DNA of 64,000 nt from Lachnospiraceae bacterium (GTDB taxonomy: Bacteria; Bacillota; Clostridia; Lachnospirales; Lachnospiraceae): positions 1 through 64,000 of the forward strand of contig JAEENO010000017.1 in the NCBI GenBank assembly GCA_016283755.1. Direction: 5' to 3'. The position numbers were made by a program, and so were the translations under genes. The notes below the pieces were generated by a model that was not told the DNA's origin, did not search any database, and was given only the letters and a program-made list of their open reading frames with translations. Below, piece by piece: positions 11,071-18,328 of this stretch; position 1 is the first letter of the stretch, and the number at the start of each line of letters is the position of its first letter.

Positions 11071-12288
11071 TCAAGCATTTTCTTCTCTTACTTGTTCAAT
11101 TAACGGACGATTTACTTTTTTTCTTGTAACTTCAACAAGATTAAGCTTTGTCATATCTACAAGCGTCGTTGTAATATGATCTTTTGATAAAAGTTCCCTG
11201 AATGTATCGATAAGCTTGGATTTATGTTCGGGATCTTTCATATCGATAAAGTCTATCATGCACATGCCGGATATATTTCTAATCTTTAACTGGCGTGCAA
11301 TCTCTTTAGCTGCTTCAAGATTAATTGTTAAGAAGAAGTCTCCAAAGTCTTTATTGGCATTCTTACCGCTGTTAACGTCGATAACCGTCATTGCTTCGGT
11401 ATATTCTATAACAAGGTATGAGCCTGACTTAAGCCATATAACCTTATCAAGTGCCTGACTTATCTCACGCTGCAGTGAAAAGAGTTTTTCCAACGGATAA
11501 GAATCATTGTAGAATCTAAGCGGTGTATGAAGGGTTTCCGGAAAAGTATTCATATATTCGGTTATTGTGTCGAACTTTTCCTTGTCATCGGTAATTATCT
11601 CATCAAATTCGCCCTTATAACTGTTCTTAATAAGGTTCAAGTATTCCGGCATAGCTTTATATATGCAGGTATATCTTGTTTTATAAGGCGCAGTCTTTAA
11701 CATCTCGTTAAAGACTTCAGCCATATCATGCGCTTCTTTTAAGATTTCTTCATTACTTACGTGCTTTGCATTGGTTCTTGCAACTATACCGATTTCAGGA
11801 TATTCGTCGTTAATCTCCTTCATAAGCTCGGACAGATGCTCACGCTTACGTCCCGTGATTTTCTTACTCACACCGCTTTGCTTTTTATTACTCGAAAGCA
11901 CAACGTATTGTCCGGATAATGTTATGGCTGTTGATGCAGCTGCAAGCTTAGTCTTAATAGGGTCTCGAACAATCTGTATTAAAAGCTCATCCCCGACAGC
12001 TATGCTCTTCTTCGAAAGCTTTTTCGTAAATATTGCATATTTCGCATCGGAATAAGGTACATAGCAGGTCTCGTTCGGACCGAATTTAACAAAGAACGCG
12101 TGAATGTTCTCTGCTATTTTATCTACACGACCTATAAATACATGATTAATAAGCGAACCTTGTCTGTCCGATATCACGTTAAGGTCGGTTAAGTGATCGT
12201 TCTCAATCTTGGCCGCAACCAATAGTTCTTTATTGGTCGCAACCTCATGATTAATCTGCATTTTGGTTAGAATCAGTTTAGTACTCAA
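11071..12288 (-). CDS. Ribonuclease E/G family protein (no Zn-link motif seen)
   Basis: S1-like N-terminus; IDVNSGKN..IDFIDM catalytic Asp motifs; ends before usual CPxCxG. Confidence 0.88.
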   Translation of the reverse strand: MSTKLILTKMQINHEVATNKELLVAAKIENDHLTDLNVISDRQGSLINHVFIGRVDKIAENIHAFFVKFGPNETCYVPYSDAKYAIFTKKLSKKSIAVGDELLIQIVRDPIKTKLAAASTAITLSGQYVVLSSNKKQSGVSKKITGRKREHLSELMKEINDEYPEIGIVARTNAKHVSNEEILKEAHDMAEVFNEMLKTAPYKTRYTCIYKAMPEYLNLIKNSYKGEFDEIITDDKEKFDTITEYMNTFPETLHTPLRFYNDSYPLEKLFSLQREISQALDKVIWLKSGSYLVIEYTEAMTVIDVNSGKNANKDFGDFFLTINLEAAKEIARQLKIRNISGMCMIDFIDMKDPEHKSKLIDTFRELLSKDHITTTLVDMTKLNLVEVTRKKVNRPLIEQVREENA

Positions 12289-13030
12289 TGTTAGCTCCCA
12301 AATCGTTAAGAGATACTAGATTCTCGCTTTCATCGCGACTATATACTTCCAAACGATATATCTGATAAATATTCTCATTGAATTCTTCCTTGCAGTAATC
12401 AAAGAATGACTGCAAAAGAAGTTCAGGCTTAATGTTGGTAAGAGAACCTGTTGAAATATTGAAGATAAGACAGGCTCTGTCTACTGCTTCTTCATCAGGA
12501 AAGCTCTTAACTTCCGCCTTAAATTCATATATAAAAGGTTTAAGGTTGAGTGTTGTCTCGCCTTTCTTAGTTTCTTTGGTAATAAGGATTTCCTCTTGGC
12601 TTAAATAATCAGAAATCATCTTATTAAGGTAATCAACGTCGTTTATGAATCCAACGCCCGAAGTCTTATTATATATCGCATATTTTGCAGATGCAACTAT
12701 TGACATTGAATTCTTTGCATTATCCGGTAAAAGCTTATAATCTTCAACTCTTATGCCTTCTACCATGCATTCGTTCAATGCTCTTATTGAATCTGCCGAA
12801 GACTTAGTCGATTTAACCCTAATATCCATATATTCGCCGTCACTTACAACACCTACGGATAAAGGTGCCGCAAATGACATGATCTGATGCGGATTAAATC
12901 CTTCGGAATATGCAATATCTATACCGGCACGTATGATTGCCTTCTGGAAAAAGCGCATGATATCAAGGTGTCCTATAAACTTCATTGAACCATGCTTTGA
13001 AAACTTAACCCTTATGTTCAACGCAGACAC
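12278..13030 (-). CDS. TIGR03936 family radical SAM-associated protein
   Basis: RVKFSKHGSMKFIGHLDIMRFFQKAIIRAGIDIAYSEGFNPHQIMSFA. Confidence 0.9.
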   Translation of the reverse strand: MSALNIRVKFSKHGSMKFIGHLDIMRFFQKAIIRAGIDIAYSEGFNPHQIMSFAAPLSVGVVSDGEYMDIRVKSTKSSADSIRALNECMVEGIRVEDYKLLPDNAKNSMSIVASAKYAIYNKTSGVGFINDVDYLNKMISDYLSQEEILITKETKKGETTLNLKPFIYEFKAEVKSFPDEEAVDRACLIFNISTGSLTNIKPELLLQSFFDYCKEEFNENIYQIYRLEVYSRDESENLVSLNDLGANIEY

Positions 13031-14870
13031 CTCCTTTATATTGAGCTATACCGCAGCCGGCGCATTTTTTACGACAGTTAGGCGTAACAATACCCTTCTT
13101 GGCATTTTCATACTCTCTTATAAGGAAATCTTTGCTTACACCTGCATCAATAAAGTCCCAAGGAAGGATTTCGTCGTAATCTCTTTCACGGAATATATAG
13201 AAGTCAGGGTCAACATCACATTCCCTGAAGCACTCATTCCATACGTCAACCTTAAAGTATTCTTCCCATGCATCAAAAATCTGGCCTTTTTCGTAAGCCT
13301 TAAGGATTACGTCGCAGAGTTTTCTGTCGCCTCTTGCAAATATACCTTCAAGAATTGTTACATCCTCGTGATGCCAGATATAGTGCATACTCTTTTTATT
13401 AAGCTGTTCCATCATGGTTGCTTTAACAAGCTTGGCTGACTCGATAAAGTAATCGGAAGTAGCCATCTTAACCCACTGGAATGGTGTAAAAGGCTTAGGA
13501 ACAAAGAAAGAAGTACTCATTGTTACCTGACATTTTCCGTTTCTTTGGTCCTTAGGAATCTCGTAATATCTTCTGCAGATCTTCTCCGCAAGCTGCGGAA
13601 TTCCCTTGATATCGTCTTCTGTTTCAAGAGGAAGTCCGAGCATAAAGTATAGTTTTACCTTCTGCCATCCCCCGTCAAAAGCAAGTCCGGCACCGTTAAG
13701 AATATCTTCTTCGGTAAGACCTTTATTGATAACATCACGAAGACGCTGAGTTCCGGCTTCGGGCGCAAAGGTTAATGAGCTTTTTCTGACATCCTGCACT
13801 TTACTCATTACATCAAGTGAAAAAGCATCTATTCTTAATGAAGGAAGAGATATATTGACTCCCTTTCCGTTGTATTTCTCAATTAAATAGTCAAGTAATT
13901 CCTTCAAAGGTCGATAATCACTCGAGCTTAAGGAGCTTAACGATATTTCATCGTAACCGGTCGAAGAAAGCATTTGATCAGCCATAGCCTTAAGTTCGTT
14001 AACATCGCGCTCTCTTGTAGGTCGATATAACATACCTGCCTGACAGAATCTGCAGCCTCTTATACAGCCTCGCATAATTTCAAGCGTAACTCTGTCCTGT
14101 ATAGCTTTTATAAAAGGAATAACGGGCTTTCTCGGCCAACCTATATTACTTGTGTTCATCTCGACGTTCTTCTCGATAACCGCAGGAATGTCGTCATATA
14201 TAGGCTTAAATGAACTTATAGTTCCGTCTTCGTTATATGTTACATCATAAAGTGCAGGTACATAAATACCGCGAATCTTGGCAAGTTCATGCAATATATC
14301 TCGCCTGTCGCAGCCTTCGTCTCTCATTTTCTTATAGGTATCGAGAAGCTCGTCGTATACGGTTTCCCCTTCTCCTATATAAAATATGTCGAAGAAATCG
14401 GCAATCGGTTCAGGATTATATGTACAAGGACCACCACCAATAACGATAGGATGCTCATTAGTTCTATCCTTTGATAAAAGCGGAACCTGAGCCAGGTCAA
14501 GAATCTGTAAGAGATTCGTGTAGCACATCTCGTACTGTATTGTAATACCAAGAAAATCAAAATCCTTCAAAGGATCCTGAGATTCAAGCGCAAAAAGAGG
14601 AATGTTCTTCTCCTTCATAATCTTATGAAGATCAGGCCAAGGAGAATACACTCTCTCACACCATGTGTCTTCTCTCTGATTGAACATATCGTAGAGAATC
14701 TGAATGCCCAAGTGCGACATACCGATCTCGTATACATCAGGAAAACACATACAAAATCTAATATCTATCTTGTTTTTATCTTTTACAACACTGTTAACTT
14801 CGTTTCCGATATAGCGCGCAGGCTTATCTATGGACATTAATATGTCATCGGATAAGGCAAGTTTTCTCAT
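13005..14870 (-). CDS. TIGR03960 family B12-binding radical SAM protein
   Basis: EIMRGCIRGCRFCQAGMLYRPTRER; FPDVYEIGMSHLG. Confidence 0.92.
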   Translation of the reverse strand: MRKLALSDDILMSIDKPARYIGNEVNSVVKDKNKIDIRFCMCFPDVYEIGMSHLGIQILYDMFNQREDTWCERVYSPWPDLHKIMKEKNIPLFALESQDPLKDFDFLGITIQYEMCYTNLLQILDLAQVPLLSKDRTNEHPIVIGGGPCTYNPEPIADFFDIFYIGEGETVYDELLDTYKKMRDEGCDRRDILHELAKIRGIYVPALYDVTYNEDGTISSFKPIYDDIPAVIEKNVEMNTSNIGWPRKPVIPFIKAIQDRVTLEIMRGCIRGCRFCQAGMLYRPTRERDVNELKAMADQMLSSTGYDEISLSSLSSSDYRPLKELLDYLIEKYNGKGVNISLPSLRIDAFSLDVMSKVQDVRKSSLTFAPEAGTQRLRDVINKGLTEEDILNGAGLAFDGGWQKVKLYFMLGLPLETEDDIKGIPQLAEKICRRYYEIPKDQRNGKCQVTMSTSFFVPKPFTPFQWVKMATSDYFIESAKLVKATMMEQLNKKSMHYIWHHEDVTILEGIFARGDRKLCDVILKAYEKGQIFDAWEEYFKVDVWNECFRECDVDPDFYIFRERDYDEILPWDFIDAGVSKDFLIREYENAKKGIVTPNCRKKCAGCGIAQYKGGVCVEHKG

Positions 14871-14876
14871 ATTTAC

Positions 14877-16166
14877 CTACTTTCTCTGTGAAAGCTCATT
14901 CATAATGTCATCCCAGGAGATGTTAAATTCGCTCATCATAATCATCATAAGGAAGATAAGATCTGATATCTCTGCTCTTACGCCTTCCGTATCATGAACT
15001 TTTGCCGATAATACAAGGTCTGTACCTTCAGCCATAAACTTTTTTGCAATTCCGTTCTTACCGGATTCAAGAACAGAAGTTGTATACGAACCCTCTCGAG
15101 GATTAACACGACGCTCGCAGATATGATTATATATGGTTTCAAGTAATTTACCGGTGTTTTTATCGGCAAAATCCTTATGAAGAATCTCGATTAAGAAAGG
15201 TTCGTCATCTTTTGCCGTAGAATCAAGCTGAGAAACCTTAACTACTATTCCGTGCTTGCCCTTATCTGCATATACCGACTTGATATACTGGAAGTTATTA
15301 TTCTCCCAGCCCTGTCTTATGACCTTGCCTGTTTTAGGGTCAAGATAATGCATTTTACCGTTTTGCATACTGGTTTCGAATGCTTCTTCATTCATAATTC
15401 CGTATCCGATTACTTCATTGGTGATGTAATCCTGAGTTACGTAATGAATAAAGCCTACCTTATCAATGTTGAAATCCTGATAATGCATTGAAGCTTCGTA
15501 TACATTAACATTTATTCCGTTATTACTTAAAGAACGCTTAAGTAATACGATATCCGTAAGCGTATCATTGATAAGCGGACCCATAACGCCCAAGCAATGT
15601 GGATTCTCAAGAGCTTTTTTGTATTCCTCTGTTTCTACGGAAGAAACCATGTAATAATATGGGAATGATGTCATAAAAGCTATAGAATCAAGGATATTGT
15701 CGTCAAATACATATAAATCGTGGAAACTTTCATCAATCTCCGCTCTTTTCTTGAATAAGAAGTTAACGTCATCGATTGCAAGAGACAATCTGTCTTTCTT
15801 AAATAACTGAAGACACTCCGGCAGAATATTCAGTAATTCAGGGTCTGAAGAGTTAAGAACTACTCTCTTACAGCCCGATACAAGATATTCTCTGATATTA
15901 CGAACCGTACCGGTAAAGCCGAAAGCATATGAAGGGATCTCAAGAATCCTGTTGATTTCCTTGATTACAGATAACGTTCTTTCGTGTTCTTCTATTGTCT
16001 CGGAAAGATCGTATAGCAACAATTCATCTACACCGGAATCGTTGTAAATACGTGCGATATCTACAGCTTTGCCCAAAGTTGTATTATCTTCGGCACTTTT
16101 AATTGCGCGACCCGCCTTAAGATAAATGGTCGCCATCAGGTTTTTCTTATCTGTTGTGATATCCAT
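14877..16166 (-). CDS. HisA/HisF-like + HisI-like + HisE-like three-domain protein, catalytic motifs degenerate
   Basis: N-terminal TIM-barrel-like; HisI-like YGIMNEEAFETSMQNGKMHY..; HisE-like RRVNPREGSYTTSVLESGKNGIAKK; but lacks SRSR, DCDxD and CHTGxxSC. Confidence 0.8.
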   Translation of the reverse strand: MDITTDKKNLMATIYLKAGRAIKSAEDNTTLGKAVDIARIYNDSGVDELLLYDLSETIEEHERTLSVIKEINRILEIPSYAFGFTGTVRNIREYLVSGCKRVVLNSSDPELLNILPECLQLFKKDRLSLAIDDVNFLFKKRAEIDESFHDLYVFDDNILDSIAFMTSFPYYYMVSSVETEEYKKALENPHCLGVMGPLINDTLTDIVLLKRSLSNNGINVNVYEASMHYQDFNIDKVGFIHYVTQDYITNEVIGYGIMNEEAFETSMQNGKMHYLDPKTGKVIRQGWENNNFQYIKSVYADKGKHGIVVKVSQLDSTAKDDEPFLIEILHKDFADKNTGKLLETIYNHICERRVNPREGSYTTSVLESGKNGIAKKFMAEGTDLVLSAKVHDTEGVRAEISDLIFLMMIMMSEFNISWDDIMNELSQRK

Positions 16167-16175
16167 TTTTAACTC

Positions 16176-16706
16176 CTATCTTGACTGTAAGTCCTGGTTT
16201 AATTTATCGAGATACGGTACCAATACACCGTTTTTACTTTTAAAGAAATATTCTTCATCAAGTTCATCGAAAGTAAAGCTTTTTCTTCCGCCTTCTTCGG
16301 CTCTTTTATGAAATTGAAGCAATTTCTCGAGTGTCAGATAATAGAATATGTCTCTTTTTGTATAGTACAAAAGGAAAAAAGCTATACCCTGCTGATGCTC
16401 GAATTCTTTCATGAAATTAATCTGGTGCTCATGAATGTTATGAAGAGTAAACGTATCATCATTACATTCTTTCGCATCAAAGCACACAGGAATACCCTGC
16501 ACAGCGCCTATATAGTCGACCGTGCTTTTCTTATCAAAATATGCAAGTGTAATCTGCTTAGTATCGTGATCTATTTCAATCGGCGTTATCGGAGTCGGAA
16601 TCTTCTGAATAAGCGCAAGTCCCGATTCTTCGTACTTGTCATTCGACATATTAATCATTTCTTCAAGCGCCGAGCCTCGTAAACCACGCGAATTATATGT
16701 TGGCAT
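16176..16706 (-). CDS. recU: Holliday junction resolvase RecU
   Basis: NSRGLRGSALEEMI..; VDYIGAVQGIPVCFDAKEC. Confidence 0.9.
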   Translation of the reverse strand: MPTYNSRGLRGSALEEMINMSNDKYEESGLALIQKIPTPITPIEIDHDTKQITLAYFDKKSTVDYIGAVQGIPVCFDAKECNDDTFTLHNIHEHQINFMKEFEHQQGIAFFLLYYTKRDIFYYLTLEKLLQFHKRAEEGGRKSFTFDELDEEYFFKSKNGVLVPYLDKLNQDLQSR

Positions 16707-16715
16707 AATCTGTCC

Positions 16716-17681
16716 TCACACACCAAATTCTATCTTATAAAAAATTTGTGGAATCGGTGCGATTATTTTGTTTCCGTTTTTAAAATCTATTTCATACGCA
16801 TGCAAAAGCTGTGAATTGATGTCGTACCTTATTTTCAATTCTTTGTTAAGCTTATGATTACCATACTTTTCATCTCCGAGTAACGGATACCCCAGGAATG
16901 CAAGATGTGCTCTTATCTGATGGCTTTTTCCGGTAATAAGATGAACACGAAGTCTTGTATATTTCCCGTTATCAGATAAGGGTTCATACTCGGTTATAAT
17001 ACTTTTTGCACCTTTAAAGTATGAATCTTTAACTATAACTTTGTTGGTTTTTTCATCCTTTATAAGATAAGCTTCAGTTTTAATTTTATCCTTGATTACA
17101 CCTTCACAAAGACATACATAATACTTATCGATACTTCGTTCTTTCAGTGCATCCGATAAATAATGAAGTCCTTTCATAGTCTTACCGAAAAGCAATAACC
17201 CCGACGTATTCCTGTCGAGGCGGTTGGCCACAGAAGGCTTAAATACTTTATATTCTTCAAGTGTAAGAAGCTTATTCTTTATCATATATGATAAGAAAAG
17301 CTCATTAGCCGAGATATCATTCTTCTCTGCTTTCTGAGAAAGCATTCCGACAGGCTTATTGATAGCCAAGATATCTTCATCTTCATATATTACTTCAAAT
17401 TCATTTGTATCAAGCTTTGAAAGTATATCGAATTCCCTATCGACCGAACCGGAATCAGTATTACCCGAAAACTTATTAAAAGTGTCATCGGAAAAGAACA
17501 CAGATATAGTGTCACCTGCTGCAAGGTGCTCTTTGCCGTCGCATTTCTTACCGTTAAGAACTATGTTCTTCTTTCGTATCATCTTATATAAAAATGATGA
17601 AGTGGCATTTGGAAAATGCTTGATAAGCACTTTTATTAAAGTTGTATTCTCTTCGTTTTTACTGATTTTAATCTCTTTCAT
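16716..17681 (-). CDS. RluA-family pseudouridine synthase
   Basis: VANRLDRNTSGLLLFGKT; HQIRAHLAFLGYPLLGDEKYG. Confidence 0.93.
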   Translation of the reverse strand: MKEIKISKNEENTTLIKVLIKHFPNATSSFLYKMIRKKNIVLNGKKCDGKEHLAAGDTISVFFSDDTFNKFSGNTDSGSVDREFDILSKLDTNEFEVIYEDEDILAINKPVGMLSQKAEKNDISANELFLSYMIKNKLLTLEEYKVFKPSVANRLDRNTSGLLLFGKTMKGLHYLSDALKERSIDKYYVCLCEGVIKDKIKTEAYLIKDEKTNKVIVKDSYFKGAKSIITEYEPLSDNGKYTRLRVHLITGKSHQIRAHLAFLGYPLLGDEKYGNHKLNKELKIRYDINSQLLHAYEIDFKNGNKIIAPIPQIFYKIEFGV

Positions 17682-18328
17682 TTTATTTCGATTTCGTTAT
17701 AATCCTTGATATAATAATCTGAAAGTGCACGCTTTTCATCATCAAGATAAGCCGTTAAGTCATCTTGTACCGCCACAACCTTCATACCTGCAGCCTTACC
17801 GGCTCTTATTCCTCCCGGAACATCTTCAAATACAAGACAATTCTCAGGCTTGGAATTAAGAACTTCCGCAACTTTTAAGTAAATATCAGGAGCAGGTTTA
17901 CCGTTACTTACTTCATCGTTGGTAATAAATACACTGATGTAATCGCTTATATGAAGTCTTGAATCTATAGCTTCTACAAGATCTCTTGAGTTACTTGTCG
18001 CAATACCCATCTTAAAGCCCTTTTCTTTGGCTTTCTTAATGAATTCTTCCGCACCTTTTTTATACGGAATCGTATTCTTATAATGGTCGTAGCTCATCTT
18101 ATGCCAGATTGCCTGGATTTCTTCTTTGGTATAATCAAACTTATAATAGTTAATGAACAAATAAGCGGTATCATCAAAGGATAATCCGTCTAACTTTTTG
18201 ACAAGGTCTGACGGAAACTCTCTCCCATGGTTTTCAAAGAATTCTTTATCAATCTCGTGCCATATATTCATTGAATCTATGAGCGTTCCGTCCATATCGA
18301 AAATTAGAGTATCTATATTATCAAACAT
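17678..18328 (-). CDS. HAD family hydrolase (beta-phosphoglucomutase-like)
   Basis: IFDMDGTLIDSMNIW; VFEDVPGGIRAGKAAGMKVVAV. Confidence 0.9.
   Translation of the reverse strand: MFDNIDTLIFDMDGTLIDSMNIWHEIDKEFFENHGREFPSDLVKKLDGLSFDDTAYLFINYYKFDYTKEEIQAIWHKMSYDHYKNTIPYKKGAEEFIKKAKEKGFKMGIATSNSRDLVEAIDSRLHISDYISVFITNDEVSNGKPAPDIYLKVAEVLNSKPENCLVFEDVPGGIRAGKAAGMKVVAVQDDLTAYLDDEKRALSDYYIKDYNEIEIK

Follow-up and report, generated by a model that had tools for sequence, protein, structure and literature searches.

A HisIE fusion retained after in-place deletion of its histidine operon in a Lachnospiraceae genus, a probable exapted pseudoenzyme

The window analyzed here is a 64,000-nucleotide stretch of DNA from a rumen-type Lachnospiraceae bacterium, whose genus is known here from uncultured assemblies only. 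A hisIE-derived gene in this window (14877..16166, minus strand) stands where relatives carry the last gene of a histidine operon, of which the four upstream genes have been deleted. The HisI active site of its product is destroyed, and the reading frame is maintained under purifying selection. Judging from sequence, we consider it very probable that the product is an exapted pseudoenzyme.

The gene starts with ATG and encodes 429 amino acids, and its assignment is based on the open frame together with Pfam and NCBIfam scores. A preliminary description of the same DNA had proposed an intact gene for a three-domain HisA/F-HisI-HisE-like protein, and both points were borne out, the first domain being HisF-like. 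On the minus strand, the HisF-like (beta/alpha)8 barrel comprises residues 1–227 (15486..16166), the degenerate HisI (PR-AMP cyclohydrolase-like) domain residues 228–336 (15159..15485), and the HisE (PR-ATP pyrophosphohydrolase-like) domain residues 337–429 (14880..15158). Pfam recognizes His_biosynth at 13–133 (53.4 bits), PRA-CH at 256–314 (28.6 bits, just over the cut-off of 27) and PRA-PH at 345–428 (36.4 bits). The protein scores 114.4 bits against the NCBIfam HisIE model NF002747, under the curated cut-off of 187, and passes the PRA-PH domain model TIGR03188 with 67.6 bits against a cut-off of 42.7. Structure prediction, based on small alignments, gave a mean pLDDT of 78.5, with the barrel at ~90 and parts of HisI and HisE low; the model shows a full (beta/alpha)8 barrel, then a HisI-like beta domain, then an all-helical HisE domain. 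In Foldseek, the barrel matches HisF with a TM of ~0.74 (by target length), and HisIE 6j2l is also listed, with poor overall superposition. A canonical fusion, modeled less confidently (mean pLDDT 73.8), has its secondary-structure elements in the same order.

This architecture is not peculiar to the window. A query match was found in 284 of 299 family genomes (one per genus), and the matches listed include well over 100 near-full-length places with frames of ~420–500 aa. The HisF-like–HisI–HisE fusion is the standard HisIE of Lachnospiraceae, and a novel fusion was ruled out on this ground. The window protein belongs to this group, as a three-domain protein of ~430 aa that lies downstream of recU and has common ancestry with the other members. 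Literature searches on HisIE in Lachnospiraceae and on orphan hisI genes turned up nothing on such a protein.

Normally, the fusion is the last gene of its operon. The canonical order is a rluD-like gene, recU, hisZ, hisG, hisD, hisB and the fusion, followed in many genomes by a Radical SAM gene, DUF2344 and an RNase E/G gene; in Roseburia, a hisG/hisZ/hisD/hisBd/hisEI operon has been described, with hisFH elsewhere (PMC7478625). In the window, recU (16176..16706, minus strand) is the upstream neighbor, in the same order as in histidine-positive relatives, and only 9 bp (16167..16175, minus strand) separate its stop from the start of the fusion, at the very site where those relatives carry hisZ-hisG-hisD-hisB. 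Downstream, after a 6-bp gap, lies a Radical_SAM_N2/Radical_SAM gene (13005..14870, minus strand), so that both neighbors named in the preliminary description were found. Since the fusion directly follows recU in the window genus, and four his genes lie between them in canonical relatives, hisZGDB has been deleted. The adjacency of recU and the fusion recurs in several genomes, on contigs up to 245 kb, which argues for a true deletion with no binning gap and rules out an assembly gap as the cause of the missing his genes. The fusion has been kept in place in seven of seven genomes of the genus. Its position is thus ancestral, and relocation out of a his operon was ruled out; the gene does now stand apart from any his operon, as stated earlier, yet the site is that of the ancestral operon. 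The close spacing suggests that the fusion may be co-expressed with recU and the radical SAM gene. The surrounding region, 11071–18328 of the window, is a tight same-strand run of RNase E/G, DUF2344, radical SAM, RecU, pseudouridine synthase and HAD hydrolase genes, a gene order that congeners share and that is partly retained across the family.

The rest of the pathway is missing as well. The fusion gene is the sole PRA-CH match in the window genome (99% complete, a draft in 52 contigs), and searches of this genome returned no HisB, HisD or HisG, no plausible HisA or HisF, and no second HisI. HisB and HisD are present in one of the seven genus genomes; of the six without them, three are only 62–77% complete. 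Besides the degenerate fusion, the congener G005 has on a separate contig a complete his operon that includes a short, canonical HisIE; the fusion is therefore kept even beside a true HisIE. Mis-binning of this contig is unsupported, as its composition fits G005 (tetranucleotide correlation ~0.7–0.8 with its own contigs vs roughly 0.4–0.7 with other genomes). The G005 operon (L049, C67 277-7696) is a compact hisZ-G-D-C-B-H-A-F-IE array, unlike the split family-type operon, and the differing gene order suggests that it may have been gained later, possibly by horizontal transfer.

To judge the active sites, we mapped the window protein onto Medicago HISN2 (MtHISN2), whose HisI metal ligands are D125, C126, D127, D129, C142, H143 and C149 (PMC8102479). 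Only the first aspartate of this D-C-D-D-C-H-C set is kept, i.e. one of seven. The substrate-side SRSR/W/K motif is also gone (S276D, R277P, R279T, W283I and K285Q). For comparison, we aligned 49 fusions with 40 added ones, giving 89 rows, 80 histidine-positive and nine in pathway-deleted loci. The metal set is complete in all 80 histidine-positive fusions and in none of the nine others, where the 80 form a non-random family sample, since the 30 best query matches were taken first and the 40 added fusions came from HisB-positive genomes or the same ranking. The loss of HisI motifs noted earlier is therefore real, and the protein is predicted to be without PR-AMP cyclohydrolase activity, i.e. 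unable to open the PR-AMP ring. Degeneration is graded within the genus: the congeners G001, G002 and G005 (~50% identical) keep the three zinc cysteines and have lost two of the three aspartates and SRSR, whereas the first aspartate is the sole HisI ligand left in G000, G003 and G006, and the partial G004 copy looks alike.

Despite this loss, the gene does not behave as a pseudogene. The frame is open without stops in seven of seven genus members, one copy ending at a contig end. By the Nei–Gojobori method, omega is 0.05 between G000 and G004 (HisI 0.07, HisE 0.01; dS 1.37) and 0.09 between G000 and G003, values that are rough because synonymous sites are saturated or close to it in most pairs. 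In a neutral simulation, 0.2% of 429-codon ORFs were still open at 0.1 substitutions per site. Together, dN/dS and this simulation rule out a pseudogene. Constraint is distributed the other way round from canonical fusions, with the HisF-like and HisE parts conserved and HisI evolving fast: identity between G000 and G003 is 0.81 for HisF-like, 0.48 for HisI and 0.94 for HisE, compared with 0.48–0.54, 0.76–0.83 and 0.67–0.83 in three canonical pairs. Six replacements (E89R, K93E, A256G, F366L, D371N and A387S) are fixed in the six full-length genus members and occur in none of the 80 canonical rows, and they are spread over all three domains; T273H and P338T are also fixed in the genus, each occurring once among the 80. 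The suggestion of selection for a different role thus gains from the absent pathway, the open frames, the low omega and the inverted constraint, while the role itself can only be inferred.

The window genus is not the only case. A maximum-likelihood tree requires four independent changes to the degenerate state, in the window genus, G119, G129 and G313. At the locus, G119 and G313 keep hisZ and the fusion, and G129 keeps the fusion alone. HisI accelerates most in G129 and G313, HisE does so too, and any acceleration of the barrel is small; in G313, mean barrel identity to congeners is 0.69 vs 0.65–0.71, and that of HisI is 0.67 vs 0.75–0.81. G205 and G066 at first resembled hisB-negative genomes with a fusion, but neither was counted as a degenerate case, G205 (70% complete) having canonical motifs and G066 carrying hisZ, hisG and hisD where a contig ends. 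In G119 (L047 1198-2475) and G313 (L111 8738-9916), hisZ, which encodes the HisG regulatory subunit, adjoins the degenerate fusion at loci that have lost hisG, hisD and hisB by deletion; a search across the whole G119 genome found no HisG. The genus of G094 shows another outcome. There, a 121-aa stand-alone degenerate HisI lies beside recU in six of six genomes that are 95–99% complete (L070/L105, L099-L104, L106-L110). These HisI proteins are 65–98% identical with omega ~0.1–0.2, the HisF-like and HisE parts being gone; neither HisB nor HisG was found in the G094 genome, where an antiporter-like gene follows the stand-alone HisI. These genomes form a natural series, from the intact operon through hisZ plus fusion, fusion with partial motif loss and fusion with full HisI loss to HisI only, and it makes the role of the extra HisF-like barrel of the family HisIE testable. 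Retention is not obligatory: of roughly 25 hisB-negative genomes sampled across the family, ~20 lack the fusion, and its role is therefore dispensable in most of them.

To explain these observations, we propose that the fusion once formed the end of an ancestral hisZ-hisG-hisD-hisB-hisIE cluster, and that it would have stayed in place and been exapted when the upstream four genes were deleted, with its HisE site and barrel serving a non-histidine role. Taken as a whole, this account seems to us to stand in even balance between right and wrong. As to mechanism, HisE may bind, and perhaps slowly hydrolyze, an adenine nucleotide or other NTP, the non-catalytic HisF-like barrel would offer a conserved surface for phosphate binding or protein contacts, and HisI would be a structural linker only; we advance this ligand-binding mechanism tentatively. 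The G094 genus, which kept only HisI, is unexplained by a model centered on the barrel and HisE. Considering the four operon deletions together with this HisI-only pseudoenzyme genus, it is conceivable, though short of probable, that a second, non-histidine function of the Lachnospiraceae fusion repeatedly outlives the pathway.

Such a function could also be older than the deletions. The barrel may have had a second, histidine-independent role in ligand binding or protein contact already in canonical relatives, which pathway loss would merely unmask; we regard this as possible, if somewhat unlikely. The window barrel has the fold of HisF, and several first-half positions match (the D45, D51 and N103 equivalents), whereas the second half is strongly diverged and the catalytic Asp11 of HisF, at the end of beta-1, is replaced by Tyr15. 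The preliminary description correctly noted the missing aspartate. It is no sign of repurposing in the window protein, however, because fully canonical relatives lack it as well: the position is Tyr or Phe in 74 of the 80 canonical fusions, and the N-terminal barrel of the standard Lachnospiraceae HisIE is nearly always without Asp11. For the same reason, the role of the barrel is unexplained even in histidine-making species. An older role would fit this absence alongside D47, S55, G83, G98 and K210, which are invariant in 89 of 89 fusions, and would also fit the G313 barrel, which did not accelerate after pathway loss when HisI did. However, these invariant residues may be merely fold-critical, most hisB-negative genomes have lost the protein, and the G094 genus kept HisI without a barrel.

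Alternatively, HisE may be the only working part, acting as a MazG-type house-cleaning NTP (or PR-ATP-like) pyrophosphohydrolase on a passive scaffold of HisI and barrel, which we think rather unlikely. The HisE metal ligands of MtHISN2 are E214, E217, E234 and D237 (PMC8102479), and their equivalents in the window protein are E380, D383, E399 and D402, with one E-to-D change. S360 and T362, the phosphate-contacting residues of the SYT loop, are retained, in line with the EGSYT motif reported before; the stacking Tyr240 has become Phe (F405), and the equivalent of His241 is lost. Mapping onto these ligands rules out loss of the metal site in the window clade, and the degeneration of HisE described earlier was overstated. 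The protein thus carries the ligands and SxT loop of a functional HisE, from which activity on PR-ATP can at most be predicted. HisE is also better conserved than any other part of the protein within the window clade, with 94–99% identity among the four closest species and omega of 0.01–0.04 where estimable, and it passes the PRA-PH domain cut-off, all of which would suit an enzyme of this kind. Against it, barrel identity too is far above that of canonical pairs (0.81 vs ~0.5), the His241 equivalent is lost and the E217 equivalent is now Asp, and E399Q in the congeners G002 and G005 would disarm the site there. In G119, T380 and N399 mean that two ligands are lost. As the ligands are changed in G002, G005 and G119, HisE catalysis cannot be the role common to all degenerate relatives. 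We nevertheless take the mechanism proposed above, with nucleotide binding by HisE, as the most likely one, because E380, D383, E399, D402, S360, T362 and the aromatic F405 are kept in the window clade.

It is improbable that the gene is a slowly decaying, functionless relic, perhaps kept for continuity of translation or transcription into the radical SAM gene. Decay would agree with how closely the fusion abuts recU and the radical SAM gene, with the degeneration of HisI and with the loss of the protein from other his-negative genera, and G129, G119 and G313, each a single-species case, could be of recent origin. However, the frame is open in seven of seven species, between which dS is ~1.4 or more, omega stays far below 1 in each of the three domains, neutral survival of such an ORF is negligible, and replacements are fixed across the genus. 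That the protein is still a histidine enzyme, with its HisI site rebuilt elsewhere and a pathway that is present but missed, is very improbable: HisE could still accept PR-ATP and the genome is a draft, but HisG, HisD, HisB and plausible HisA/HisF are absent from a 99%-complete genome and the deletion is seen in place.

Compared with known systems, the HisI and HisE domains are homologous to those of bifunctional HisIE (Shigella 6J2L, MtHISN2 7BGM), and the canonical Lachnospiraceae fusion has the same three domains and the same ancestral locus after recU-hisZGDB. The window protein differs from canonical HisIE in its destroyed HisI site, absent pathway, inverted constraint and score under the curated HisIE cut-off. 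The closest published parallel found, as a histidine-pathway protein outliving its pathway, is PriA of Actinomycetaceae, which persisted in modified form once his and trp genes had been lost (Juarez-Vazquez et al. 2017, PMC5404923). PriA stayed an enzyme and was narrowed under relaxed purifying selection, whereas in the window protein one catalytic site has been abolished under strong purifying selection. The latter is a case in which a biosynthetic enzyme has given up one active site and its gene has remained under purifying selection. If the second function is true, the his operon would be a recurrent source of exapted pseudoenzymes. Automated annotation may label such proteins HisIE and so infer histidine biosynthesis that is absent. 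Fungal HIS4 also has an unexplained N-terminal region, which may be linked to the HisF-like barrel (PMC1963479).
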